Shown: in pieces, positions 1 to 12,837 of the stretch
Position numbering within the stretch: position 1 is the stretch's first letter
How the letters are laid out: each line of letters opens with the position of its first letter
Assembly: GCA_016780605.1 (NCBI GenBank)
Contig: JADHLS010000057.1
Span: 1-12,837, forward strand
Length of the DNA stretch: 12,837 nucleotides
Source: Reyranella sp.
Lineage (GTDB): Bacteria; Pseudomonadota; Alphaproteobacteria; Reyranellales; Reyranellaceae
Reading direction: 5' to 3'
Notes under the pieces: generated by a model
The model's input: only the letters and a program-made list of their open reading frames with translations
Databases searched by the model: none
What the model was told of the DNA's origin: nothing
Program-made: the position numbers and the translations under genes

Positions 1-410
1 GGATGCGCTCGAGGTTCCACTTCACCGCCTGGGCGTCGATCGTCTCGCCGTTATGGAACTCGGCCCCCTGGCGCAGCTTGAAGGTCCAGGTCTTGAGGTC
101 TTTCGACGGCTCCCATTCCTTGGCGATGCCGGCCACGATGTTCATGCCCGCGTCGAAGTCGAGCAGGCCGCCGGTGGTGCCGGCCATCGGTTGAGAGACG
201 TAGTAGATGAAGTTGCGATGGGTATCGAGACCGACAGAATCGTCGCGCGTGCCGAAGCGCACCGTGCCGCCGCGCTTTGGGTTGCGCTTGCGTTCCGCCT
301 TGGCGGCGCCAGGCAGACCCGCGAGGGCAGCGCCGGCCAGCGCCGTCGTCGCGGTGAGGAACTCACGCCTTGTACTTTCGGGACCCTTTTTGTTTGCTTC
401 GTCGGTCATG
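1..410 (-). CDS. ABC transporter substrate-binding protein, family 5 (peptide/nickel type), N-terminal part
   Basis: Periplasmic solute receptor of a Dpp/Opp-type ABC importer. About 136 N-terminal residues are visible; the gene runs off the left edge. The start is ATG (408-410 complement), preceded on the minus strand by GGGAGG at 418-423 with a 7-nt spacer. The N-terminus carries a twin-arginine signal: S12-T-R-R-E-F-L18, a hydrophobic Ala/Leu/Gly stretch to about residue 33, and a plausible cleavage after Ala-Lys-Ala38. The mature part begins with a Lys/Arg-rich segment and RGGTVRFGTRDD, typical of SBP_bac_5 proteins. It continues with the family's WTFKLRQGAEFHNGE block, the edge of the ligand cleft. 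The ligand cannot be told from this part; peptides, opines and other small solutes are all possible. The permease and ATPase genes would lie outside the window. Family call is firm, substrate unknown. Confidence 0.9.
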
Positions 411-564
411 ACGTCGCCTCCCAGAACGCTTTGTTTGGGCCGAAGTGGGCTATGTGATCGAAACGCCTACTCGATAAGCGATCTCCCGAAACGATCTCGA
501 CAGGGGCGCGCGTTGCCGCGCCGTGCAAAAAGAGCCTGCCGGCATTCCCGGTGGAGGTCAACGA

Positions 565-590
565 CCGCACCGGTGGGTTCGCCGGTGCGG
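565..590. repeat. Perfect 9-bp inverted repeat in the divergent intergenic region
   Basis: CCGCACCGG (565-573) and CCGGTGCGG (582-590) form a perfect hairpin with an 8-nt loop. It lies between the divergent binding-protein and lipoprotein genes. No T-run follows on either strand, so it is not a standard terminator. It could be an operator or an RNA hairpin. The rest of the 411-680 gap holds the promoter at 612-640 and no convincing gene. Confidence 0.45.
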
Positions 591-611
591 CGCCAAGTTC
601 GTCACGCGCTT

Positions 612-640
612 TTGCAGTTCGCCAGCCGCGTGAGTATTCT
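612..640 (+). promoter_or_regulatory. Candidate sigma-70-type promoter of the small lipoprotein gene
   Basis: TTGCAG (612-617) and TATTCT (635-640) are separated by exactly 17 nt. This predicts a start of transcription near 647 and a leader of about 35 nt before the GTG at 681. The match is partial (3/6 and 4/6 to consensus), so the call rests mainly on spacing and position. Confidence 0.4.
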
Positions 641-680
641 ATGGAAATGCACCGCCGAACGATCGGTAGGGGAGGCTGAC

Positions 681-995
681 GTGACACGCATTTGGCTTAG
701 CGTCATCGCTTTAGGCGTCCTGGCCGCCGCCTGCTCAGATCCCAATCGGGCTCCAGGCGTGATCCCGGACACCAGCCCATCGCCACCGCAGGGCACCGCG
801 CCGGCCGCTGACTCCGGCGGGCTCCAGAACAGCCAGCCCGGCGTGATGCCGCCTACCCAGATGACCGACAACAGGCCGCCGAATGCGCTCGACGCGAACC
901 CGCCGGGGACGCCGTCCTATGTCATTGCGCCTGGCGATCCAGTTGGTCGGCGCAGCGGGCAGATCCCGCAGCCTGGCGGCAGACCAGCGTTCTAG
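681..995 (+). CDS. Small proline-rich lipoprotein of unknown function
   Basis: 104 residues. The start is a GTG at 681, chosen because AGGGGAGG (668-675) lies 5 nt upstream and translation from it begins exactly with a lipoprotein signal peptide. The open frame runs further upstream, but that part has no ribosome-binding site or signal. The N-terminus is Thr-Arg followed by a hydrophobic stretch and the lipobox L-A-A-A-C. The acylated Cys is near residue 18 and is followed by Ser, which favours outer-membrane sorting by the usual +2 rule. The mature part is low-complexity, rich in Pro, Gly, Asn and Asp, with no recognisable fold; it resembles a disordered envelope linker. It diverges from the ABC binding protein and is followed by the tRNA-Pro terminator. 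The lipoprotein call is good; the function is unknown. Confidence 0.75.
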   Translation: MTRIWLSVIALGVLAAACSDPNRAPGVIPDTSPSPPQGTAPAADSGGLQNSQPGVMPPTQMTDNRPPNALDANPPGTPSYVIAPGDPVGRRSGQIPQPGGRPAF

Positions 996-1010
996 GCGTC
1001 GCGCGGCGTG

Positions 1011-1044
1011 CAAAAGCAAACGGCGCGCATCGCTGCGCGCCGTT
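1011..1044 (-). terminator. Intrinsic terminator of tRNA-Pro
   Basis: AACGGCGCGC (1019-1028) and GCGCGCCGTT (1035-1044) form a perfect 10-bp, very GC-rich stem with a 6-nt loop. Read on the minus strand it is followed by TTTGCTTTTG, a T-rich tail. It begins 9 nt past the tRNA 3' end. The stem could also slow readthrough from the lipoprotein gene on the plus strand, but there is no T-run in that direction. Confidence 0.8.
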
Positions 1045-1053
1045 CGTCCCGAT

Positions 1054-1130
1054 TGGTCGGAGTGAGAGGATTTGAACCTCCGGCCCCTAGCTCCCGAAGC
1101 TAGTGCTCTACCAGGCTGAGCTACACTCCG
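1054..1130 (-). tRNA. tRNA-Pro (anticodon CGG)
   Basis: 77 nt including an encoded 3' CCA (1054-1056). The cloverleaf closes fully: acceptor CGGAGTG/CACTCCG, D-arm GCTC/GAGC, anticodon stem CTAGC/GCTAG with loop TTCGGGA, and T-arm GGAGG/CCTCT around TTCAAAT. The anticodon CGG sits at 1094-1096 (complement) and reads CCG codons, which are common in this GC-rich genome. The C1-G72 pair, A73 discriminator and G35/G36 are the known bacterial proline identity elements. It stands alone, with its own promoter and terminator. Confidence 0.97.
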
Positions 1131-1163
1131 TCAGAAACGGAGGCACCCCGCTCGGGAGGCGGG

Positions 1164-1192
1164 GTTATAACCGTGGCCCCTCGCGGTCGCAA
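1164..1192 (-). promoter_or_regulatory. Promoter of tRNA-Pro
   Basis: On the minus strand, TTGCGA (1187-1192 complement) and TATAAC (1164-1169 complement) are separated by exactly 17 nt. A GC-rich discriminator (CCCGCC) follows, as is usual for stringently controlled stable-RNA promoters. Transcription would start near 1156 and give a leader of about 25 nt before the tRNA. The -10 lies in the small palindrome GGTTATAACC. Confidence 0.65.
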
Positions 1193-1245
1193 GGCCCGCG
1201 CCCAGCCGGTATAGTGCCGCGCTCTGGAACTCGCGGGGGACATGC

Positions 1246-2070
1246 ATGGCGCGCAGGAAGCGGCTCAAGATCGCGTTGATCGGCTACGGTGCCATCAGCC
1301 AGACCCTGTTCGACCTGTTCCGCGAGAAGAAGCCCGACATCGACATCGTGGGCGTCCTGGTGCGGCCCGGCCGCGCCAAGGAGACCCAGAAGCAGGTCGG
1401 CCGCAAGGTCGCCGTCGTCGAGACCCTGAAAGAGCTCCTGAAGCTCAAGCCCGACGTGGTGGTCGAGGCGGCGAGCCAGCAGGCCGTGCGCGACTGGGGC
1501 GAGACCATCCTGAAGAAGGGCATCGACCTGATGGTCATTGCGACCGGCGCCTACGGTGATGCCAAGCTCTACAGGAAGCACATCAAGGCGGCCGAGAAGA
1601 GCGGGGCCCGGCTGCGCCTGCCGTCGGGCGCGATCGCGGGCCTCGACGGGCTGCTGGCGATGCGGCTCGGCAAGCTCGAGCGCGTGAAGTACGTGTCGAT
1701 CAAGCCGCCGCATGCCTGGTCCGGCACGCCGGCCGAGACCGATTTCGACCTGCCCGCGATCAAGGAGCCAACGGTGATCTTCCGCGGGAAGCCCGCCGAC
1801 GCCGGCCGGCTCTATCCCAAGAACGCCAATCTTGCGGTGACGGTGGCGCTCTGCGGCGCCGGCCTCGACAAGACCGACATCGAGCTGGTCGCCGACCCGA
1901 CCTTGCCCGCCGGAACCAATGCCAGCAGGCTCGAGGTCGTGAGCGATTCCGGTGAGCTCAAGCTCGAGCGCCTGGGCAAGGCGATGCCCGACAATCCCAA
2001 GACCGGCGTGCTGACGGCGCTGACGATGGCCGACGACCTGATGAAGATCACCCGCGCCAGCGATTGGTAA
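1246..2070 (+). CDS. Aspartate dehydrogenase family protein (NadX/DUF108 type)
   Basis: 274 residues, near the usual length of this family. Classical members oxidise L-aspartate to iminoaspartate with NAD(P)+, which can feed NAD synthesis. The N-terminal Rossmann fold shows IALIGYGAIS (residues 9-18) as the dinucleotide loop. E75-A-A-S-Q and V97-I-A-T-G-A-Y follow, then the family signature LPSGAIAGLDGL (125-136), the KPP element (153-155) and KNANLAVTVAL (192-202). The start at 1246 has GGGGA (1235-1239) upstream; the ATG four bases earlier is in another frame. Odd point: the catalytic Asn-x-His expected after the ADP motif (216-218) appears as N225-A-S, so the His may be missing. No nadA or nadC lies nearby, so a NAD-synthesis role is not supported by context. 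The fold is secure, the exact reaction is not. Confidence 0.8.
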   Translation: MARRKRLKIALIGYGAISQTLFDLFREKKPDIDIVGVLVRPGRAKETQKQVGRKVAVVETLKELLKLKPDVVVEAASQQAVRDWGETILKKGIDLMVIATGAYGDAKLYRKHIKAAEKSGARLRLPSGAIAGLDGLLAMRLGKLERVKYVSIKPPHAWSGTPAETDFDLPAIKEPTVIFRGKPADAGRLYPKNANLAVTVALCGAGLDKTDIELVADPTLPAGTNASRLEVVSDSGELKLERLGKAMPDNPKTGVLTALTMADDLMKITRASDW

Positions 2071-2171
2071 TCTTGCCGGACCGCGGGCCTCCAGGCCCGC
2101 TCATGATCATGATGCGGGTGGGTCGCGGTTTACCGCGACCTTGGAGGCCCGCGGTCCGGCAAGAGATTACC
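2066..2171. repeat. Large palindromic REP/BIME-like element between convergent genes
   Basis: The outer arms 2071-2093 and 2142-2164 are a perfect 23-bp inverted repeat. The symmetry continues outward through GGTAATC (2066-2072) and GATTACC (2165-2171) with a 2-nt offset, so both flanking genes take their TAA stop from the repeat. Inside are two shorter palindromes: GCGGGCCT-CC-AGGCCCGC (2083-2100) and GGTCGCGGT-TT-ACCGCGACC (2121-2140). Between them lies a CATGATCATG-type core. Related units occur at 11732-11770 and 12691-12708. It probably also works as a two-way transcription stop or mRNA-end stabiliser for the convergent genes; that part is inference. Confidence 0.85.
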
Positions 2172-2706
2172 GCGGGCCGCCGCCGTGACGGTGGCCCATC
2201 ATCATCGGGCGCGGGCGGTCGAGCACCGCCTTCTGTTCGGGCGACAGCGAGTCGTAGAGCGCGACCAGGCTCGGCTTCACCGCCTCGATGCGCTCGACGC
2301 GGGCCTTCATGTAGGTCTCTTCCAGGGTGAGCTGCTGGACGTAGTTCGGCCGCTCCTTCATGTCGGTCGGCAGCGCGTTGCAGCGTGCGGTGTCCTTGAC
2401 GTCGGCGTCGTCCGAGGCCTTGGCGAAGTTGTCCCACGCCGTCATCTGCTCGGGCTTCAGGTCGAGCTTGATCTTGAGATAGGTGCGGTTGCCGGCGCGC
2501 CGCGCCACGCGGTCGAGGCAGAAGGCCTTCGGGTTGAAGGCGGCCCGACGGTCCGGGCCGGCGGCAGGGGGCGCCGGCGGCGTGGCCTGGGCGAGCTCCA
2601 GCAGGTCGTCATCGAGGCCGGCATCCAGTGCAAAAGAGGGGGCGGCGAAGAACAGGCCGGCGGCCAGGGCGGCGGGAGCGGCGAGCAGCAGGGGACGGAG
2701 CGACAT
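2167..2706 (-). CDS. Spy/CpxP-like periplasmic protein (LTXXQ motif family)
   Basis: 179 residues. A Sec signal peptide (residues 1-26, ending P-S-F-A) directs it to the periplasm. The mature part is Ala/Pro-rich up to about residue 56 and then helical. Two degenerate LTXXQ-type motifs are visible, L-K-P-E-Q near residue 84 and L-S-P-E-Q near residue 154. In Spy and CpxP such motifs mark the helical cradle that binds unfolded proteins. Two cysteines (in AFCLDR and ARCNAL) could form a disulfide. The C-terminus is Met/His/Gly-rich (MMMGHRHGGG), suggesting metal contact as in other members. Start ATG has GAGG (2714-2717 complement) 7 nt upstream. It lies 79 nt downstream of glpD on the same strand; co-transcription is possible but not shown. 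The stop codon lies inside the palindromic repeat. Confidence 0.75.
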   Translation of the reverse strand: MSLRPLLLAAPAALAAGLFFAAPSFALDAGLDDDLLELAQATPPAPPAAGPDRRAAFNPKAFCLDRVARRAGNRTYLKIKLDLKPEQMTAWDNFAKASDDADVKDTARCNALPTDMKERPNYVQQLTLEETYMKARVERIEAVKPSLVALYDSLSPEQKAVLDRPRPMMMGHRHGGGPR

Positions 2707-2785
2707 TGTTGGACCTCACCGGATGAAGCGGAGCTTCCGATGATACGTCCGCTCGGGCGCCGGCGTGCCCCGGTACAGTGTTAAG

Positions 2786-4321
2786 TTATGTAAAGTTCGG
2801 CCGCAGTTCGGCCATCCAGCGGGCGAACGCCTCGCGCTCGGCCGCCGTCATGTGCAGGCCTTCCTTGGTGCGTCGCCACAGCACGTCGTCGGCCTCGAAC
2901 GCCCATTCGTCGCGCACCAGGTAGCGAACCTCTGTCTCGTAGAGATGGCCGCCGAAGTGGCGGCCCAGGTCGGCCACCGTCTTCACTCCTTCCAGTACGT
3001 CGTCGATGCCCGAACCGTGCCTGCGCGCCAGCGCCCGCAGGAGCTCCTTGGGCAAGCCTGGCTTGACCACGGCGGCCGAGGCCACGAACTGGTCGAATGC
3101 CTCCTCGAAGGTCGGGGCGTCGGCCAGCTCCCCGTCGGCCAACGCCCGTCCCGCCGTCCATTCGCCGCCCATGCGGGGATAGTGCGGGCGCAGGTCGCGC
3201 AGCGCGTGCTCGGCGAGCCGCCGGTAGGTGGTGATCTTGCCGCCGAACACCGAGAGCAACGGCGCCGTGCCGACCGCGCCGTCCAGCTCCAGGTGATAGT
3301 CGCGGGTCACGGCCGAGGGATTGTCGTCGCCGTCGTCGAACAATGGGCGCACGCCCGAATAGGTCCACACGACATCCGCGGGCCGCACCGGCTTCACCAT
3401 GTAGTGGCTGGCGATCCCGCACAGGTAATCGATCTCCTCCTGGGTGCAGACCGGCTTCTCGCCTTCGTGCGCGGGGATGTCGGTGGTGCCGATCACCGAG
3501 AATTCGCGCTCGTAGGGGATGATGAAGATGATCCGCTGGTCGGCGTTCTGCAGGATGAAGGCGTGGTTGCCCTCGTAGAGCCGTGGCGCGACGATGTGGC
3601 TGCCCTTGATCAGGCGCACACGCTTGCCCGTCTTGATGTGGGTCTGCTCGTCGAGGAAGCGCTTCACCCACGGCCCGGTCGCGTTCACCAGGCCGCGCGC
3701 CTGCACCTTCACGATGCCGTTGTTGGGTGCAGCCAGCTCGATGTCCCACAGCTTGCCGTCGCTGGTCCGCCGTGCCGATACGCAGCGATGGCGGGCGTAG
3801 ATGCTGGCGCCCATCTGTCGCGCCGACTTCAGGTTGGCGACCACCAGTCGCGCATCGTCGACCCAGGCGTCGGAATAGACGAAGCCGTTCTTGAACGAGG
3901 GTTTCAGCCCGGTGCCGAACTTGGAGGTCGGCAGGTCAACCGCGATCGACTTGGGCAGGGTCATGTGCCAGTCGAGGTGGTCGTAGAGGAAGAGGCCGAT
4001 GCGCAGCATCCAGCGCGGCCGAAGATGCGGCTCGTGCGGCAGCACGAAACGCAGCGGAAAGCTGAGGTGCGGCGCCTTGGCCAGCAGGACCTCGCGCTCC
4101 TGCAGCGCCTCGCGCACCAGCCGGAACTCGTAGTGCTCCAGGTAGCGCAGGCCGCCATGGATCAGCTTGGTCGAGGCCGAGGAGGTGTGGGCGGCGAAAT
4201 CGTCCGCCTCGCACAGCCCGACTTTCAGCGCCCTCCCCACTGCGTCGCAGGCGATGCCCGCGCCGTTGATCCCGCCGCCGACCACGAACAGGTCGAGCGG
4301 CGCGTCGTCCCTTCCATTCAT
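2786..4321 (-). CDS. glpD: Glycerol-3-phosphate dehydrogenase, FAD-dependent (aerobic)
   Basis: 511 residues, close to the roughly 500 of E. coli GlpD. It oxidises sn-glycerol 3-phosphate to dihydroxyacetone phosphate at the inner face of the membrane and passes electrons to quinone. The N-terminal FAD-binding loop is VVGGGINGAG (13-22). The GlpD signature STKLIHGGLRYLE spans residues 50-62. VNATGPWVKRF, IGTTDIP and FGGKITTYRRL are the further FAD/substrate-domain blocks, and the C-terminal helical domain is complete. ATG at 4321 is the only usable start before an in-frame stop upstream; its ribosome site is weak. It diverges from the zinc-ribbon gene across 54 nt. No glpF, glpK or glpR is in the window, so glycerol uptake and control genes must be elsewhere, or the enzyme serves phospholipid turnover. 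Confidence 0.95.
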   Translation of the reverse strand: MNGRDDAPLDLFVVGGGINGAGIACDAVGRALKVGLCEADDFAAHTSSASTKLIHGGLRYLEHYEFRLVREALQEREVLLAKAPHLSFPLRFVLPHEPHLRPRWMLRIGLFLYDHLDWHMTLPKSIAVDLPTSKFGTGLKPSFKNGFVYSDAWVDDARLVVANLKSARQMGASIYARHRCVSARRTSDGKLWDIELAAPNNGIVKVQARGLVNATGPWVKRFLDEQTHIKTGKRVRLIKGSHIVAPRLYEGNHAFILQNADQRIIFIIPYEREFSVIGTTDIPAHEGEKPVCTQEEIDYLCGIASHYMVKPVRPADVVWTYSGVRPLFDDGDDNPSAVTRDYHLELDGAVGTAPLLSVFGGKITTYRRLAEHALRDLRPHYPRMGGEWTAGRALADGELADAPTFEEAFDQFVASAAVVKPGLPKELLRALARRHGSGIDDVLEGVKTVADLGRHFGGHLYETEVRYLVRDEWAFEADDVLWRRTKEGLHMTAAEREAFARWMAELRPNFT

Positions 4322-4375
4322 GGCTTCAGCATATACCGCGCTTGACCGGAAGTTGCAGGGACCTCAAATGGCCGC

Positions 4376-4651
4376 ATGGGCTTCCTGCTCAAGATCATCC
4401 TGTTCGGTGTCGCGGTCTACGCGGCGTGGAAGACCTTCCATCGCTGGAAGGGCATGTGGGACAAGTTCGTCGGCAACGACCAACCTGCACGGTCCGCGCC
4501 GCCACCGCCGCCAGCCCAGCCCGTCGCCACGCGCCGGACAGCGGCGATCCAGGACACCGTCCAGTGCGCCGGCTGCGGTGCCTATATTCCCGCCGAGGCC
4601 GAAAAATGCGGCCAATGCGGTCGTCCCCAGTCCCCTGGTCGGCGCGGTTGA
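4376..4651 (+). CDS. Small membrane-anchored zinc-ribbon protein
   Basis: 91 residues. One hydrophobic segment (about 3-18) is followed by a Trp/Lys-rich amphipathic stretch (18-31), a Pro-rich linker (41-49) and a C-terminal zinc ribbon with C64-A-G-C67 and C78-G-Q-C81. The layout suggests an inner-membrane anchor with the ribbon on the cytoplasmic side. It resembles the small PP0621-like proteins, which also pair one membrane segment with a C-terminal CxxC; this comparison is from memory. ATG 4376 is the only in-frame start before an upstream stop at 4343, though the nearest purine run (4355-4360) is rather far away. It precedes glyQ by 90 nt and may lead that operon. Function unknown; real because of the coherent domain order. 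Confidence 0.75.
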   Translation: MGFLLKIILFGVAVYAAWKTFHRWKGMWDKFVGNDQPARSAPPPPPAQPVATRRTAAIQDTVQCAGCGAYIPAEAEKCGQCGRPQSPGRRG

Positions 4652-4741
4652 CCGGGGTGGGGGTGGCACCTATTTTGCCGCACCGCAACAACGGCCTTAA
4701 GTCGTAGAAACACAAGGCCTTCTGAGCTTCGGGGTATACCG

Positions 4742-5638
4742 GTGTCCGAACCCTCAGCACGCCCAAAACCGACGTGCTTTCAGGAACTCATTCTGACCCT
4801 GCAGGACTATTGGGCGCGCCAGGGCTGCCTGATCCTGCAGCCGTTCGACATGGAAATGGGCGCGGGCACCTTCCATACGGCGACGACGCTGCGCGCGCTG
4901 GGTCCCAAGCCCTGGTACGCGGCCTATGTGCAGCCCTCACGGCGCCCGACGGACGGCCGTTACGGCGACAATCCGATGCGGCTCCAGCACTACTATCAGT
5001 TCCAGGCGATCCTGAAGCCCTCGCCGCCAGACATCCTCGAGCGTTACCTGGGCTCGCTGGCCGCGATTGGCATCGATACCTCCCTGCACGACGTGCGTTT
5101 CGTCGAGGACGACTGGGAGAGCCCGACGCTCGGCGCCTGGGGGCTGGGCTGGGAAGTGTGGTGCGACGGCTCGGAGATCAGCCAGTTCACCTACTTCCAG
5201 CAGGTCGGCGGCATCGACGTCGATCTGGTGTCGGGCGAGATCACCTACGGGCTCGAGCGGCTGGCCATGTATCTCTTCGACAAGAAGTCGATCTTCGAGC
5301 TGCCCTTCAACCGGGCCGACTCCGAGGTGCCACTCTCCTATGGCGACGTCTTCCTGCAGAACGAGCGGGAGCAGTCGGCCTACAATTTCGAGTTCGCCGA
5401 CACCGACATGCTGTTCCGCCACTTCGCCGACGCGGAGAAGGAGTGTGGGCGGCTGATCGAGAAGAGGCTGCCGCTGCCGGCCTATGAGCAGTGCATCAAG
5501 GCCTCGCACTGCTTCAATCTCCTGGACGCGCGCCGCGTCATCAGCGTCACCGAGCGGCAGAGCTACATCCTGCGCGTCCGCGATCTCGCCAAGGCGTGCT
5601 GCGAGGCATGGCTGGCGACACAGAAGGAAGCGGCGTGA
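4742..5638 (+). CDS. glyQ: Glycine--tRNA ligase alpha subunit
   Basis: 298 residues, the usual length. Catalytic subunit of the bacterial alpha2beta2 glycyl-tRNA synthetase, which charges tRNA-Gly in the cytoplasm. The protein shows the near-invariant blocks [60 protein letters not shown] and [12 protein letters not shown]. Further on come [18 protein letters not shown] and [10 protein letters not shown], the class II core. The start is GTG at 4742, fixed by where homology begins; the upstream region has only a weak GGGG ribosome site (4734-4737 region). The stop TGA shares one base with the glyS ATG, so the two subunits are translationally coupled, fitting their stoichiometric complex. Confidence 0.97.
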
Positions 5639-7689
5639 TGGCCGAGCTTCTTCTCGAATTGCTGAGCGAGGAAATCCCGGCGCGCATGCAGGCGCGCGCC
5701 GCCGACGATCTCAAGCGGCTGGTCGGTGACGGTCTGAAAGCCGCCGGGCTCGAGTTCAAGGACGCCAGCGCCTTCGCGACGCCGCGCCGGCTGACCTTGG
5801 TGGTCGACGGCCTGCCGACGGCGCGTGCCGACGTGAGCGAGGAACGCCGCGGCCCGCGCGTCGGCGCGCCCGATCAGGCGGTGCAGGGCTTCCTCAAGGC
5901 CACAGGGCTCGCTTCGCTCGATCAGGCCGAGAAGCGCGACACCGGGAAGGGCGAGTTCTGGTTTGCCGTCATCAGAAAGAAGGGTGGCCCGACCGCCGAA
6001 GCACTGCCCGGCATCATCGATGCCGCGATGAAGGCGCTGCCCTGGCCGAAGTCGATGAGGTGGGGCAGCGGCACCATGACCTGGGTGCGGCCGCTGCAGT
6101 CCATCGTGGCCCTGTTCGACGGCAAGGTGCTGGCGGGTGAGATCGCGCCCGGCGGGCAGATGGCGCCGATCAAATTCGGCGACACCACACGCGGCCATCG
6201 CTTCCTCAGCAACGGCCCGATCAAGGTCGCGGGCTTCGCCGACTACACGGCCAAGCTCAGGGCGGCGCACGTCATGCTCGACCCGGCCGAGCGCAAGCAG
6301 GTCGTGTTCGAGGGCGCTGAGAGGCTCTGCACCGAAGCGCAGGTGGCGCTCAAGGCCGACGAGGGCCTGCTGGACGAAGTCGCGGGGCTGGTCGAATGGC
6401 CGGTGCCCATGCTCGGCACCATCGATGCGCAGTTCATGGGCGTGCCGCCCGAGGTGCTGATCGTGTCGATGAAGACGCACCAGCGCTATTTCGTGACGAC
6501 TGACAGGTCGGGCGCGCTCGCCAATCGCTTCGTCGTGGTCGCCAACAACGTGGCGCGCGACGGCGGCAAGACCATTGTCGACGGCAACGAGCGCGTGCTG
6601 CGCTCGCGTCTGAGCGACGCCAAGTTCTTCTGGGACCAGGACCGAAAGCAGCGCCTGGCCGAGCGGCTGCCGGCCCTGAAGGACATCGTCTTCCACGCCA
6701 AGCTCGGCACCCAGGCCGAGCGCGTCCAGCGCATCACCCAGCTCGCCTCGCAGATCGCGACGTCGGTACCGGGTGCCGACATCTCCCAAGTCGAGCAGGC
6801 GGCGCTGCTCTGCAAGGCGGACCTGGTGACCGGCATGGTCGGCGAGTTCCCCGAGCTGCAGGGGATCATGGGCCGCTACTATGCGCTGGAGGAGAAGATT
6901 TCGGCCGCGGTCGCCGACGCGATCGGCGATCACTACGCGCCGGCCGGCCCGAATGATCGCTGCCCGTCCGCGCCCGTGTCGATCGCCGTGGCGCTCGCCG
7001 ACAAGCTCGATGCGCTGGTGTCGTTCTGGTCGATCGGCGAGAAGCCGACGGGCTCGCGCGATCCCTACGCCTTGCGCCGTGCCGCCCTCGGCGTCATCCG
7101 CATCATCGTCGAGAACAACATCCGCCTGCCGCTGAAGAAGTTCTTCTCGGCCGACGACCTGATGGCCTTCTTCGCCGATCGCCTGAAGGTGCAGATGCGC
7201 GAGAAGGGCGTGCGCCACGACGTGGTCGATGCCGTGTTCGCGCTGGGCGGCGAGGACGATCTGGTGCGGCTGCTGGCGCGGGTCGAGGCGGTGCAGTCGT
7301 TCCTCGGCACCGAAGCGGGCAAGAACCTGCTGACGGCCTACGGCCGCGCCGCCAACATCGTTCGCGCCGAGGAGAAAAAGGACAAGACCCTGGCGTCCAG
7401 GATCGCCGGCGCGCCCGATGCCGCACTGCTGCAACAAATCGAAGAGAAGAACGTTGCCGCTGCCTTGGCCGAAGTCGAACGCCTTGTGACGCCCGCGTTG
7501 CAGCGCGAGGATTTCGCCGCGGCGATGCAGGCCTTCGCAGGCTTGCGTGGGCCCATCGACGCATTCTTCGAAAAGGTCACAGTCAATGTCGCCGAGAAGC
7601 CCGATTTGCGGCTGAACAGGCTGAAATTGCTCAACCAGATACGCGCCACCATGGATTCGGTGGCGGATTTCTCCAGGATCGAGGGCTGA
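5638..7689 (+). CDS. glyS: Glycine--tRNA ligase beta subunit
   Basis: 683 residues against 689 in E. coli. The beta subunit binds tRNA-Gly and is needed for activity of the GlyQ dimer. The start is the ATG overlapping the glyQ stop (TGATG), giving [17 protein letters not shown], the canonical GlyS N-terminus; the longer open frame upstream only overlaps glyQ. Other family blocks are the central [14 protein letters not shown], the Asp/Lys-rich [21 protein letters not shown] and [15 protein letters not shown]. The C-terminal anticodon-binding domain ends in [14 protein letters not shown] and NRLKLLNQI. ppdK begins one base after the stop codon, so the operon continues. No truncation or frameshift seen. 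Confidence 0.97.
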
Positions 7690-7690
7690 G

Positions 7691-10362
<2,672 letters not shown>

Positions 10363-10366
<4 letters not shown>

Positions 10367-11289
10367 GCCTTTCGGCGCTTCGTGACGGCGGCAAGCGCGC
10401 CCTGGCGGGTGCGCTTGCCGGTCTGGAGCGCGATCCCGAGGGTGAGGCAGCGCAGGCGTTGCTTGATGCCGCCTGGCGTGAGCCCCGCGCGCATGTCGTC
10501 GGCGTGACCGGGCCTCCCGGTGTCGGCAAATCCTCGTTGTGCGCCGCACTCGTTGCCGCATGGCGCAAGGCCGGCAAGACCGTCGGCGTGATCGCCGTCG
10601 ATCCATCCTCGAAGTCGAGCGGCGGCGCGCTGCTGGGCGACCGCGTGCGCATTGTCCATGACAGCGCCGACGAGGGCAGCTTCGTCCGCTCCATGGCGGC
10701 GCGTGACCGGCTGGGTGGCTTGGCCGACCAGACGCTGGCGGCCATGGTGGTGATGCGTGCCCTGTTCGACCGCGTGCTGATCGAGACGGTGGGCGTGGGC
10801 CAATCGGAAACGGATGTCGCGGGCGTGGCCGACACCGTCGTGTTCTGCGTCCAGCCGGGCTCGGGCGATTCGCTGCAGTTCATGAAGGCAGGCATCGTCG
10901 AGATCCCGCACCTGATCGTCGTCACCAAGGCCGACCTCGGTGCCGCGGCCGAGCGGGCACGCGCCGACGTAGCGGGAGCGCTGTCACTTGCTACCGCCGG
11001 CGACGACTGGCTGGCTCGCACGCTTGCCGTCTCGTCGCGCAATGGCGAAGGCATGGACAAGCTCGTCGCGGCGCTCGAGGCGCATCGCGCGCATCTGTCG
11101 GCCGACAACCGGCTCGTCGTCGCCCGTCATCGCCAGAGCGAAGGCTGGATCGCCGAATCGCTGCGCGACCGTTTCGGCCGCGAGGGCATTGCCAGGCTCG
11201 GCCGCCTCGGCTTCGATCTCACCCTGCCGGCCGGCGCGCAGCCCTTCCTGCGGCTGCGCGAGCTCGGTGCAATCCTGCTCAACGGATGA
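10363..11289 (+). CDS. meaB: Methylmalonyl-CoA mutase-associated GTPase MeaB
   Basis: 308 residues, normal for MeaB/ArgK G3E-type GTPases. MeaB gates loading of adenosylcobalamin into methylmalonyl-CoA mutase and protects or rescues the enzyme from inactivation. Visible GTPase elements are the P-loop G50-PPGVGKSS58, V79-DPSS83 with [10 protein letters not shown] after it, E141-TVGVGQSE149 (switch region) and the base-recognition T188-KAD191. The C-terminal helical dimerisation region ends in [13 protein letters not shown]. The ATG overlaps the ppdK stop (ATGA). No mutase gene is nearby, so its client is either encoded elsewhere or is another B12 acyl-CoA mutase. A related ArgK-type kinase role was proposed for this family in the past but is not supported by its motifs. 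Confidence 0.92.
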
Positions 11290-11302
11290 GGGGAGACAAA
11301 CG

Positions 11303-11728
11303 ATGAGCCATCCGACCGACGCCAACTGCATCTTCTGCAAGATCGTCGCGGGCCAGATCCCGAGCTTCAAGCTCCTGGAAGACGACAAGACCATCGCCTT
11401 CATGGACATCAACCCGGTGAATCCGGGCCATGCGCTCAGCGTCGCCAAGGGCCATTGGCCGATGGTCGATACGATTCCGACCGATGTGCTGGCGGCCGTT
11501 GCGGCGACGGCCCAGAAGGTCGCCAAGGCGGTGATGACGGAACTCAAGCCCAACGGCGTGAACCTCCTGCAGGCCAATGGCGCGGGCGCCGGCCAGAGCG
11601 TGCCGCATCTCCACTTCCACATCATGCCGCGCCGTCCCAACGACGGCGTCGCCCTCAACTGGGACTACAAGCCCGGCGACAAGGCCGAGATCGAGGCGGT
11701 CTACAAGCGGCTAAAGGCTGTGCTGTAG
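11303..11728 (+). CDS. HIT family nucleotide hydrolase/transferase (Hint-like)
   Basis: 141 residues. Histidine-triad proteins cleave nucleotide phosphoramidates or related adenylated compounds. The active-site triad is H102-L-H104-F-H106-I-M-P-R near the C-terminus. The N-terminal C9-I-F-C12-K-I-V-A-G-Q-I-P is typical of the branch that binds structural zinc through CxxC, usually with two His (here probably H51 and H102). ATG 11303 was chosen over a longer upstream frame because GAGGGGAG lies just before it and homology starts there; the extra upstream residues are a shadow of meaB. It is the last gene of the glyQ operon, 13 nt after meaB. Bacterial Hint proteins act on aminoacyl-adenylates from some tRNA synthetases, so sitting with glyQS is suggestive but unproven. 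Confidence 0.9.
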   Translation: MSHPTDANCIFCKIVAGQIPSFKLLEDDKTIAFMDINPVNPGHALSVAKGHWPMVDTIPTDVLAAVAATAQKVAKAVMTELKPNGVNLLQANGAGAGQSVPHLHFHIMPRRPNDGVALNWDYKPGDKAEIEAVYKRLKAVL

Positions 11729-11731
11729 TCT

Positions 11732-11770
11732 TTGGAGTGCGGACCTCCAAGGTCGCGGTTTACCGCGACT
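11732..11770. repeat. REP-like palindromic element, second copy
   Basis: Two small hairpins in tandem: TTGGAG-7nt-CTCCAA (11732-11750) and GTCGCGGT-TT-ACCGCGAC (11752-11769). The stretch 11741-11769 matches the reverse complement of 2121-2150 almost base for base, with differences mainly at the palindrome centre. It starts 3 nt after the HIT stop, so it caps the glyQ-to-HIT transcript and may act as its 3' end. Confidence 0.75.
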
Positions 11771-11853
11771 ATCCGAAGCCTAGCCACGAGGCCGAGATCG
11801 AAGCGGCCCAAAGACAATGGAACTCCGTGCTAGCATTGCTATCACTACGGTTA

Positions 11854-11882
11854 TTGACAATATACTTTAGTCATGATAACCT
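11854..11882 (+). promoter_or_regulatory. Candidate promoter of the VPGF/Cys-rich gene pair
   Basis: A consensus TTGACA (11854-11859) lies in an AT-rich stretch unlike the surroundings. With a 17-nt spacer the -10 would be TAACCT (11877-11882), a poor match. Alternatively TATACT (11861-11866, 5/6) is the -10, with a weak -35 near TTGCTA (spacer 19). Either way transcription would start 40-55 nt before the ATG at 11921. The rest of 11771-11920 shows no gene. Confidence 0.45.
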
Positions 11883-11907
11883 CACGCCTTGGTGGTAGAT
11901 GCCATGC

Positions 11908-11913
11908 AAGGAG
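11908..11913 (+). promoter_or_regulatory. Ribosome-binding site that sets the start at 11921
   Basis: AAGGAG with a 7-nt spacer to ATG 11921 is the best Shine-Dalgarno in this part of the window. It favours 11921 over the in-frame ATG at 11873, which overlaps the promoter region and has no such site. Confidence 0.7.
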
Positions 11914-11920
11914 CATACTT

Positions 11921-12268
11921 ATGTTTAACTTGGTTCCCGAGGCCGAGGTGCCCGGATTTCGCCTACGTGTAGCCGACTATGTTCCCGGTTTCCGGGTCCG
12001 AGAAGACGGTTCAACCGGTCCGACTGCAATGGATCGCGTGTACAATTCATTTGCGCCGAATGACTTTCTGGCGCCACCTCCTATACCTACTCCAAGGTCG
12101 GACTTTCGCGTTGCCGTCGATTGCGCAAAGGTAATTGCTGACTGTCACGATCGTTGCATTAGCCGGTTTGAATTGAAACCTTTCCCCGGCCCTTCCGGAA
12201 CGAATCAATTCTTTATGTATCGGCGGTGCATGCGAGACTGCGTCGAGCCAAGCGGCTGCAGCTATTGA
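11921..12268 (+). CDS. Unknown protein with tandem VPGFR repeat and six-cysteine C-terminal half
   Basis: 115 residues, not recognised as a named family. The N-terminal part holds two adjacent 11-residue repeats, V10-P-G-F-R-L-R and V21-P-G-F-R-V-R, then a Pro-rich linker (51-59). The C-terminal half has six cysteines: C68, C75, C79, C103, C107 and C113. C75-HDR-C79 and C103-MRD-C107 are twin CX3C pairs about 23 residues apart, as expected for two helices stapled by disulfides. Such bonds imply an oxidising compartment, yet no Sec, Tat or lipoprotein signal is visible, so export (if any) is by another route. I recall VPGF-repeat proteins with a Cys-rich tail in other Rhizobiales genomes, without known function. 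Base composition and codon choice (TTT, ATT, AAA, TTG) differ from the neighbours, suggesting transfer. The gene at 12279 follows after 10 nt. Confidence 0.65.
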   Translation: MFNLVPEAEVPGFRLRVADYVPGFRVREDGSTGPTAMDRVYNSFAPNDFLAPPPIPTPRSDFRVAVDCAKVIADCHDRCISRFELKPFPGPSGTNQFFMYRRCMRDCVEPSGCSY

Positions 12269-12278
12269 TAGGCGAATC

Positions 12279-12518
12279 ATGGAAAGAGCGGTTGCTACCA
12301 AAGTGGTTGATATTCTCGTCGAGTGTCGAGACCTTGGTGCGTTGGACGCCCTGTCCTTGAAAATCGCTGATGAAGATGAAAGGCGAGCCTTCCGACGCAG
12401 GCTCGGGGAAATTATGGGGCTCTATGCAGACATGCTCGTGTCCGTGTTGCGAGAATACCCCGATCTGGATCCAGACCCCGTGCATCCACCAACGCGCGAG
12501 AGAGGAGAACCAGCCTAG
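12279..12518 (+). CDS. Small acidic helical protein of unknown function
   Basis: 79 residues. No family recognised. The body (residues 1-60) looks like two or three amphipathic helices: VATKVVDILVECRDLGALDAL, then a charged stretch DEDERRAFRRRLGEI, then MGLYADMLVSVLREY. The tail is Asp/Pro-rich (DLDPDPVHPP). No signal peptide or membrane segment is seen, so it is probably cytoplasmic. The ATG lies 10 nt after the stop of the Cys-rich gene, with a weak GATAGGCGA before it, so translation is probably coupled to that gene. It shares the lower GC of its partner. The constant pairing of a Cys-rich, possibly exported protein with a small acidic partner is compatible with a cognate partner or immunity-like role, but nothing in the sequence proves this. 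Confidence 0.6.
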   Translation: MERAVATKVVDILVECRDLGALDALSLKIADEDERRAFRRRLGEIMGLYADMLVSVLREYPDLDPDPVHPPTRERGEPA

Positions 12519-12622
12519 CTTCGGACTGCATTGACTGTCTTCCCTGTTTCGCGGGAGGGACCAACGGCTAGCCCTGGTCGCCACATGCGAGGGTCACCGC
12601 CCCCTGCGTCGCTGCAGTCTTG

Positions 12623-12672
12623 TTGAGCAACAACGCGCCTGCTCAAGCGCATGAGCGCGCACGATGTGCGCG
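12623..12672. other. Two consecutive hairpins in the intergenic region
   Basis: TTGAGCA (12623-12629) pairs with TGCTCAA (12640-12646). CGCGCAC (12656-12662) pairs with GTGCGCG (12666-12672) around a 3-nt loop. Neither is followed by a T-run. They lie between the small-protein pair and the minus-strand regulator, and could be parts of a degenerate repeat element or transcript-end structures. The remainder of 12519-12718 shows no gene. Confidence 0.35.
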
Positions 12673-12690
12673 GGTCCGGAATAGCAATGA

Positions 12691-12708
12691 GCGGACCTGG
12701 AGGTCCGC
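12691..12708. repeat. REP-like palindrome, third copy (short)
   Basis: GCGGACCT (12691-12698) and AGGTCCGC (12701-12708) form an 8-bp palindrome with a GG centre. It has the same design as GCGGGCCT-CC-AGGCCCGC inside the large element at 2083-2100, differing by one transition per arm. It lies between convergent genes, 10 nt beyond the stop of the minus-strand regulator. Confidence 0.6.
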
Positions 12709-12718
12709 GCTCCAATGA

Positions 12719-12837
12719 CTAAGCGGCCGCCAGCGGGGTGCCGCGCACGGTTGTCGAGAACCACTCGCGCTCGTCCTGGCGGAACTGCTCGCGCACGTAG
12801 TCGATGACGGTATGGATGCGGGCGCCCTTGTTGGTCT
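12719..12837 (-). CDS. C-terminal end of a probable LysR-type transcriptional regulator
   Basis: Only the last 39 codons are present; the gene enters from the right edge and stops at TAG (12719-12721 complement). The visible part contains TNKGARIHTVIDYVREQF and ends in ...GTPLAAA. The pattern of a small residue, Ala-Arg-Ile, then a single amphipathic helix near the end matches the C-terminus of many LysR effector-binding domains. That a gene is present is well supported by codon pattern; the family call rests on a short stretch and could be wrong. The DNA-binding domain and any target genes lie outside. Confidence 0.45.
   Translation of the reverse strand, partial: TNKGARIHTVIDYVREQFRQDEREWFSTTVRGTPLAAA

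Follow-up and report, generated by a model that had tools for sequence, protein, structure and literature searches.

We have found that a two-gene cassette of Reyranella sp. very probably encodes a polymorphic toxin and its immunity protein, a reading that is built on comparison with homologues in other genomes. ORF1 would consist of an N-terminal tag of PGF repeats, a disordered linker and a toxin tip shaped as a stapled hairpin, and ORF2 would be the matching immunity protein. The tag and the C-terminal cysteine (Cys) module of ORF1 are separable parts, each common to other proteins, and homologues of ORF2 track the Cys module, not the tag. The original prediction had offered three interpretations of the pair: an effector with a cognate partner, a surface protein exported by a non-classical route, or a metal-binding module. 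The first is strongly supported by the pairing of module and partner, by the swapping of carriers and by the existence of orphan and tandem partners; nothing that was found speaks for the second, and the third has become less likely.

The gene pair and its insertion site

The window, meaning the whole stretch of 12,837 nucleotides that was analysed, corresponds to contig C474 in a fragmented genome (G000) of 4.3 Mb and 60.7% completeness. Features of the cassette and its flanks are listed in Table 1. Genomes of the same genus (65, or 61 in some scans) served for comparison.

Table 1. Positions of the cassette, its parts and its flanks in the window
Feature	Position	Strand	Remarks
Left flank, presumed HIT-like gene	11303..11728	+	141-142 aa in relatives
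Inverted repeat, left arm	11726..11756	+	31 nt; starts at stop codon of HIT-like gene
AAGGAG, ribosome-binding-site-like, 5' of ORF1	11908..11913	+	read from sequence
ORF1	11921..12268	+	115 aa; PGF-tagged, C-terminal twin-CX3C module; predicted toxin; homologues in other genomes
N-terminal tag of ORF1, residues 1-33 (MFN..VPGFR..VPGFR..DGS)	11921..12019	+	common to proteins with other C-termini
Linker of ORF1, residues 34-58	12020..12094	+	Pro-rich near its end; no secondary structure in model
C-terminal Cys module of ORF1, residues 60-115	12098..12265	+	helices 60-84 and 94-111; C75/C79 and C103/C107 invariant
ORF2	12279..12518	+	79 aa; small, acidic, helical; predicted cognate immunity protein
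Inverted repeat, right arm	12691..12721	+	31 nt; overlaps stop codon of LysR-like gene
Right flank, 3' end of presumed LysR-like regulator gene	12719..12837	-	runs past the window end

Most of the sequence features described in the original prediction were recovered. The two plus-strand ORFs lie 10 nt apart and are preceded by a sequence resembling a ribosome-binding site, the VPGFR repeat of ORF1 occupies residues 10-14 and 21-25, and four of its six cysteines (68, 75, 79, 103, 107 and 113) make up two CX3C motifs. The ORFs are richer in AT than their surroundings (54% and 55% GC, against 67% for bases 1-11728), and the palindromes said to bracket them correspond to an inverted repeat whose arms are 84% complementary. 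ORF2 is acidic (12 K+R, 17 D+E, pI 4.8) and helical in an AF2 model, and a signal peptide was not seen by eye in either protein. The promoter-like box assigned to the pair did not stand: a scan of 11700-12760, confined to promoters of the sigma-70 type, found none. The start of ORF1 was placed at 11921, not 11873, because members of the tag family start with MFN. A repeated 5-mer arises in 110 of 20,000 composition shuffles of ORF1 and two CX3C motifs arise in 403 of 20,000. The recurrence of both halves in other genomes is beyond chance.

Neither ORF matches Pfam, NCBIfam, PADLOC or PHROGs. An assignment to phage genes was rejected on the PHROGs result, an assignment to plasmid genes on a tblastn search that gave no plasmid match for either ORF, and a known defence system was ruled out by the lack of a PADLOC match.

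The flanking genes, which we take from their sequences to be HIT-like and LysR-like, also adjoin in relatives. Sixteen such sites were read and 14 counted, G004 being truncated where its contig stops and G009 being treated apart. The interval between the two genes is 10-84 nt in 11 of the 14 relatives, 216-217 nt in G033 and G078, and 1109 nt in G016, where it holds an unrelated gene. In G009 it measures 330 nt and contains a remnant of the last residues of the module together with an ORF2 homologue. A palindrome is seen by eye in the same interval of several relatives, being long in G071 and G012, so the cassette may have split a palindrome or hairpin element.

Exchange is also visible at a second chromosomal site, between genes that by eye are EF-G-like and aminotransferase-like. 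G000, G012 and G020 carry the tag here with another C-terminal end, module B, and its partner, and G033 carries the tag with the Cys module and an ORF2 homologue. Behind module B of G000 (L047) lies an ORF2-like match with an internal stop (C21:7412-7489; E 2.5e-6), which is probably a remnant, as if the Cys module had formerly been there.

The Cys module, its carriers and its partner

The Cys module, of about 55 residues, was found 13 times in total across tagged and untagged carriers. Seven modules obtained through ORF1 or tag searches gave the alignment A4. Among 65 genomes, A4 picked up four more frames (E 9e-7 or better) and the remnant in G009; in a few of these genomes the best candidates only were scored, which makes an absence there weak evidence. 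The 17 weaker A4 matches (E 0.005-0.1) lie outside the module count. The ORF2 profile A3, used on a class sample of 385 genomes, led to two more modules in other families (L284 and L373), and an absence in this search is weak evidence because the best 15 candidates per genome at most were scored.

The PGF tag precedes three of the 13 modules (window, L040 and L089). L284 carries the module at the C-terminus of a 258-aa frame whose residues 26-100 form an RHS core (TIGR03696, E 2.6e-22), and this frame adjoins a larger RHS gene; many plasmid records matched the RHS part, none over 80% of the query. In L373, it stands at the end of a 605-aa protein. The N-terminal domain of the L260-L262 carriers (BLASTP E 3e-18, 2e-16 and 7e-16) is that of a 570-aa protein of G011 (L044:11855-13564) with C-terminal colicin M (ColM; PF14859, Pfam E 9e-21), and the L260 carrier matched one phage record, over 32%. 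The same Cys module is found on at least five carrier types, namely the PGF tag, L042/L043, the L260 (ColM) type, L373 and the RHS core. Among the 13 frames, L041, L044 and L275 have no in-frame start and look interrupted.

The N-terminal domain of the 570-aa protein resembles part of the endolysin-annotated phage proteins phrog_1044 and phrog_10475. Two carriers of another family, L373:6776-8590 and L374:5917-8151, apparently occupy the same site, near a gene that by eye encodes a long DnaE-type polymerase. The former has the Cys module as its C-terminal end and is accompanied by two ORF2 homologues; the latter ends differently, and an ORF2 homologue persists 3' of the next gene.

Each of the 11 module frames that were found without the use of ORF2 is followed by an ORF2 homologue in the same orientation; for L284 and L373, which were found through ORF2, the partner is present by construction, and L373 has two ORF2 homologues in tandem. 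The rival explanation that ORF1 and ORF2 are chance neighbours, fast-evolving orphans without joint function, would suit their lack of Pfam, NCBIfam, PADLOC and PHROGs matches and their low-GC insertion. It is ruled out by this co-occurrence, which extends over several carriers, and we regard its probability as negligible; the original prediction had named homologues that never co-occur as the sign of a chance pair, and the opposite was found.

ORF2 homologues also occur apart from the module. ORF2 matches in 61 genomes (E up to 1e-3) lie at nine places, six of which have a module frame upstream; the remaining three comprise the module remnant of G009 and two places, in G010 (L046) and G011:C12 (L045), with neither frame nor remnant. 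A further ORF2 copy in L044 lies behind another short CX3C-like frame. Among the matches of the class search with A3, those in G399 and G297 are accompanied by the module, and a look for the pattern beside those in G225, G041, G428 and G100, all outside the genus, showed no module; the weaker matches in G180 and G126 were outside this look. Orphan immunity genes are common in polymorphic toxin systems.

A concordance test asked for the downstream neighbour of each C-terminal type. Its 56 genes were 52 tagged genes, five tagged frames that were short or at a contig end having been left out, and four untagged Cys-module genes; clustering by C-terminus gave 29 groups, of which 18 had a single member. 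A downstream cluster was shared by 49 of 61 pairs from the same C-terminal cluster and by 10 of 1479 pairs from different clusters, a concordance matched by none of 1000 permutations. The Cys module accounts for 21 of the 61 same-type pairs, which are not all independent because some genes occupy one chromosomal site. A first version of the test had given lower values (47/116 vs 11/1714) because short proteins were clustered by their tag. In the 56-gene set, the ORF2 cluster lies beside Cys-module genes only. For module type H, with five members, the partner is inconsistent (1 of 10 pairs).

ORF2 could instead be a secretion chaperone or adaptor that readies ORF1 for export. A small, acidic, helical protein without an export signal by eye would be a suitable candidate for such a role, but its homologues accompany the C-terminal module on all of the carrier types above, its cluster keeps to Cys-module genes, and both the tandem copies and those that lack a module suit immunity genes better. 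We consider the chaperone unlikely; ORF2 probably protects its owner against the module.

Module B (L047, L053, L085 and L120) consists of a Cys-bearing C-terminus that is followed in 4/4 cases by a partner of 118-124 aa with an L.PGDI.H start. This is a second predicted toxin-partner family. The one module B carrier scanned, L120, has no Pfam match.

Predicted fold, mode of action and known systems compared

An AF2 model of ORF1, built from seven sequences and with a mean pLDDT of 61.8, shows the two helices of the module after a stretch without secondary structure that extends to residue 59. Block means of pLDDT are 90 for residues 71-80 and 101-110 and 44-59 for residues 31-60. The index sums of the cysteines (75+107 = 182, 79+103 = 182, 68+113 = 181) fit an antiparallel hairpin. 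A helical hairpin is supported for the Cys module, the AF2 model, of moderate confidence, being in agreement with it. The four CX3C cysteines are invariant in 13/13 modules. C68 and C113 occur together in 6/13 and are jointly missing in 7/13, never one alone; since this pattern may go back to one inherited change, it amounts to one joint event at the least. The model and this all-or-none pattern together support the stapled hairpin that had been proposed from ORF1 alone.

The four invariant cysteines would equally suit a Zn or Fe-S binding domain, the pair then being a metal or redox module rather than a weapon, and a signal peptide is not seen by eye in either protein, which would leave both in the reducing cytoplasm. 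Against this, the all-or-none behaviour of C68 and C113 across the 13 modules matches the antiparallel register of the other pairs, and the module forms the tip of RHS-type and colicin-M-type carriers. A metal domain is accordingly held to be improbable, and the stapled toxin tip is preferred.

Searches with the ORF1 and ORF2 models gave no significant fold match. The fold list for ORF1 contains many QCR6 chains, Mdm35 and Tim complexes (best E 0.89), and by sequence profile the best PDB match is Tim10 (E 0.046), with QCR6 and a vicilin peptide (E 2.5) next in line, none of them significant. The ORF2 model has a mean pLDDT of 82, with helices 3-15, 20-26 and 32-59. Small Tim and CHCH-type mitochondrial proteins, such as Tim10, QCR6 and Mdm35, carry a twin cysteine motif in a helical hairpin and are chaperones or respiratory subunits; Tim10 and QCR6 top the profile list, and QCR6, Mdm35 and Tim complexes are among the fold matches, all at E-values short of significance.

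Plant alpha-hairpinins have two CXXXC motifs on antiparallel helices, with disulfides Cys1-Cys4 and Cys2-Cys3 (PMC7191063). The Cys module likewise has two CX3C motifs, in 13/13 cases, on two predicted helices, and its register is compatible with predicted bonds of the same connectivity. It differs in its longer loop, in the third Cys pair of 6/13 modules and in its C-terminal position in bacterial proteins. No member of the alpha-hairpinins or of the twin-CX3C proteins gave a significant sequence or fold match to the module, and a literature search for a bacterial toxin with twin CX3C gave nothing related.

The enzyme ColM attacks lipid II, a precursor of the cell wall. A relative of the Cys-module carriers L260-L262 ends in ColM, as described above; the hairpin is much smaller than ColM, and the single L260-type carrier scanned with Pfam gave no ColM match. 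In alignment A4, the invariant residues besides the four cysteines are two Arg, a Gly and a Tyr only, for which reason the hairpin would act by binding and not by catalysis, blocking its target. It would become oxidised outside the donor cytoplasm, and ORF2 would shield the producer by binding the hairpin directly. No export signal is seen by eye in ORF2, which would place it in the wrong compartment for a disulfide toxin acting outside the cytoplasm, unless it acts before export; this fits better if ORF2 binds the toxin prior to export or if the target is cytoplasmic. If this reading is true, the cassette supplies a toxin tip of about 55 residues that looks non-enzymatic and has two or three Cys staples, together with an immunity family, and the tip is small enough for direct study of its structure and target.

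In polymorphic toxins, an N-terminal trafficking part is kept, the C-terminal toxin is exchanged and an immunity gene lies adjacent; the immunity genes are sometimes several in tandem, and RHS proteins are among the carriers (Zhang et al. 2012, PMC3482391). The cassette resembles these systems in that one N-terminal part heads differing C-terminal tips, one C-terminal tip is found on differing carriers, including RHS, and the predicted immunity gene lies directly downstream of the module. The tagged family also includes known toxin domains (2 of 20 proteins scanned). A difference is that none of the family models used recognises the PGF tag or the stapled-hairpin tip, and neither is mentioned in the excerpted text of PMC3482391.

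The PGF tag and its candidate exporter

Two further proteins of the window genome start with PGF repeats and differ in their C-terminal ends. A profile of nine tag starts (A1) placed tags in 15/61 same-genus genomes at E up to 0.1, and a profile of 20 tag starts (A2) placed them in 12/65 at E up to 1e-4. The latter 12 genomes hold at least 57 tagged frames with differing C-termini. This number derives from 59 frames collected at A1 places, of which L041_458 (another PGF repeat) and L101_4614 (an overlapping frame) were left out; some weaker tag places, such as G007:C99 and G071:C208, yielded no frame by the criterion used. Among 20 tagged proteins, Pfam recognised one Tox-REase-7 end (E 2e-6) and one SLT lytic transglycosylase end (E 2e-21) and gave no match for the other 18; NCBIfam gave nothing above its cut-offs for 10 of the 20, and PADLOC had no match among eight tagged proteins. 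Nuclease-like motifs were seen by eye in L048, L051 and L106.

In the class sample of 385 genomes, the tag was found only in the window's own genome, with one weak match elsewhere, and its absence outside the genus is weak evidence because the best 20 candidates per genome at most were scored. With this scope, the PGF tag is nearly absent outside the genus. The string VPGFRV was not found in the literature searched.

The closest comparison is with RIX, a short, arginine-rich N-terminal domain that is widespread in Vibrionaceae, precedes a variety of C-terminal toxins, lacks a canonical secretion signal, and is necessary and sufficient for T6SS secretion (PMC10435454). The PGF tag is likewise a short N-terminal part on diverse C-termini without a canonical secretion signal. 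Unlike RIX, it is a repeated linear motif, occurs so far almost only in one genus and has a candidate exporter. The tag would be read by a secretion machine and would most likely deliver the hairpin into a neighbouring cell. The T6SS is the leading candidate exporter, to which we give an even chance.

TssC was found in 16/65 same-genus genomes. It is present in 9/12 tagged genomes, the window's own included, vs 7/53 untagged ones (Fisher p 5e-5, uncorrected for kinship), an association weaker than the Fisher value suggests, since ten of the tagged genomes, including two that lack TssC, belong to a single clade. This is the clade of the window's genome in a midpoint-rooted PPDK tree built from 50 genomes, in which G007 was left unplaced; eight of its ten tagged genomes have TssC, and the other two contain a single tagged frame apiece. 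G070, which has both tag and TssC, lies outside the clade on weakly supported branches. Tagged genomes have 2-11 tagged frames when TssC-positive and 1-2 when TssC-negative.

The tag could instead serve another exporter, or the PGF repeats could be used by a lineage-specific scaffold, and we judge this to fall slightly short of an even chance. Both the joint occurrence of tag and TssC and the larger number of tagged frames in TssC-positive genomes speak against it. In its favour, G007 (73% complete), G009 (95%) and G013 (87%) are tagged but without TssC, the seven untagged TssC-positive genomes show the converse, and the tagged genomes belong largely to the one PPDK clade. PAAR was above the cut-off in 13/61 genomes and missing in the tagged, TssC-positive G000 (61% complete) and G020 (81%). 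The T6SS regions read, some of whose clusters were cut by contig ends, hold no tagged gene, and no T6SS gene was seen beside the subset of tagged genes whose neighbours were inspected. A T6SS component peculiar to tagged genomes was sought and rejected, no core gene separating them from untagged ones.

With the T6SS as the exporter, a fuller account can be put forward, tentatively and with rather more doubt than belief. The PGF repeats would be an undescribed tag that loads lineage-specific polymorphic effectors on the T6SS, and the module would be a cystine-stapled hairpin toxin, convergent with alpha-hairpinins, that is oxidised in the victim periplasm and blocks an envelope target by binding; the pair would represent a new toxin-immunity family common to tag, RHS and colicin-M-type carriers. 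If true, a new short tag lets polymorphic effectors be listed from sequence alone and adds many C-terminal modules with their partners.

Several minor observations concern the surroundings of the tag. In the T6SS regions L182-L210, families of 363-447 aa and 224-307 aa flank 4/9 tagged and 0/7 untagged cases. An RHS-repeat-like gene was seen by eye near tagged genes of G020 (L049). L103:5256-5717, L113:3751-4191 and L117:4009-4440 are short tagged proteins without an obvious C-terminal domain and are possibly stand-alone carriers; the gene 3' of each encodes about 390-420 aa with a start that by eye is signal-peptide-like, and the three genes form one cluster. Another kind of PGF repeat, TPGFHKSP / PPGFYRSP, is found close to a Cys-module frame in L041:4642-5247 of G003, which has no TssC. 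This protein and a frame beside that module have the stretch GLLPLPPSWANYVRAQY in common.
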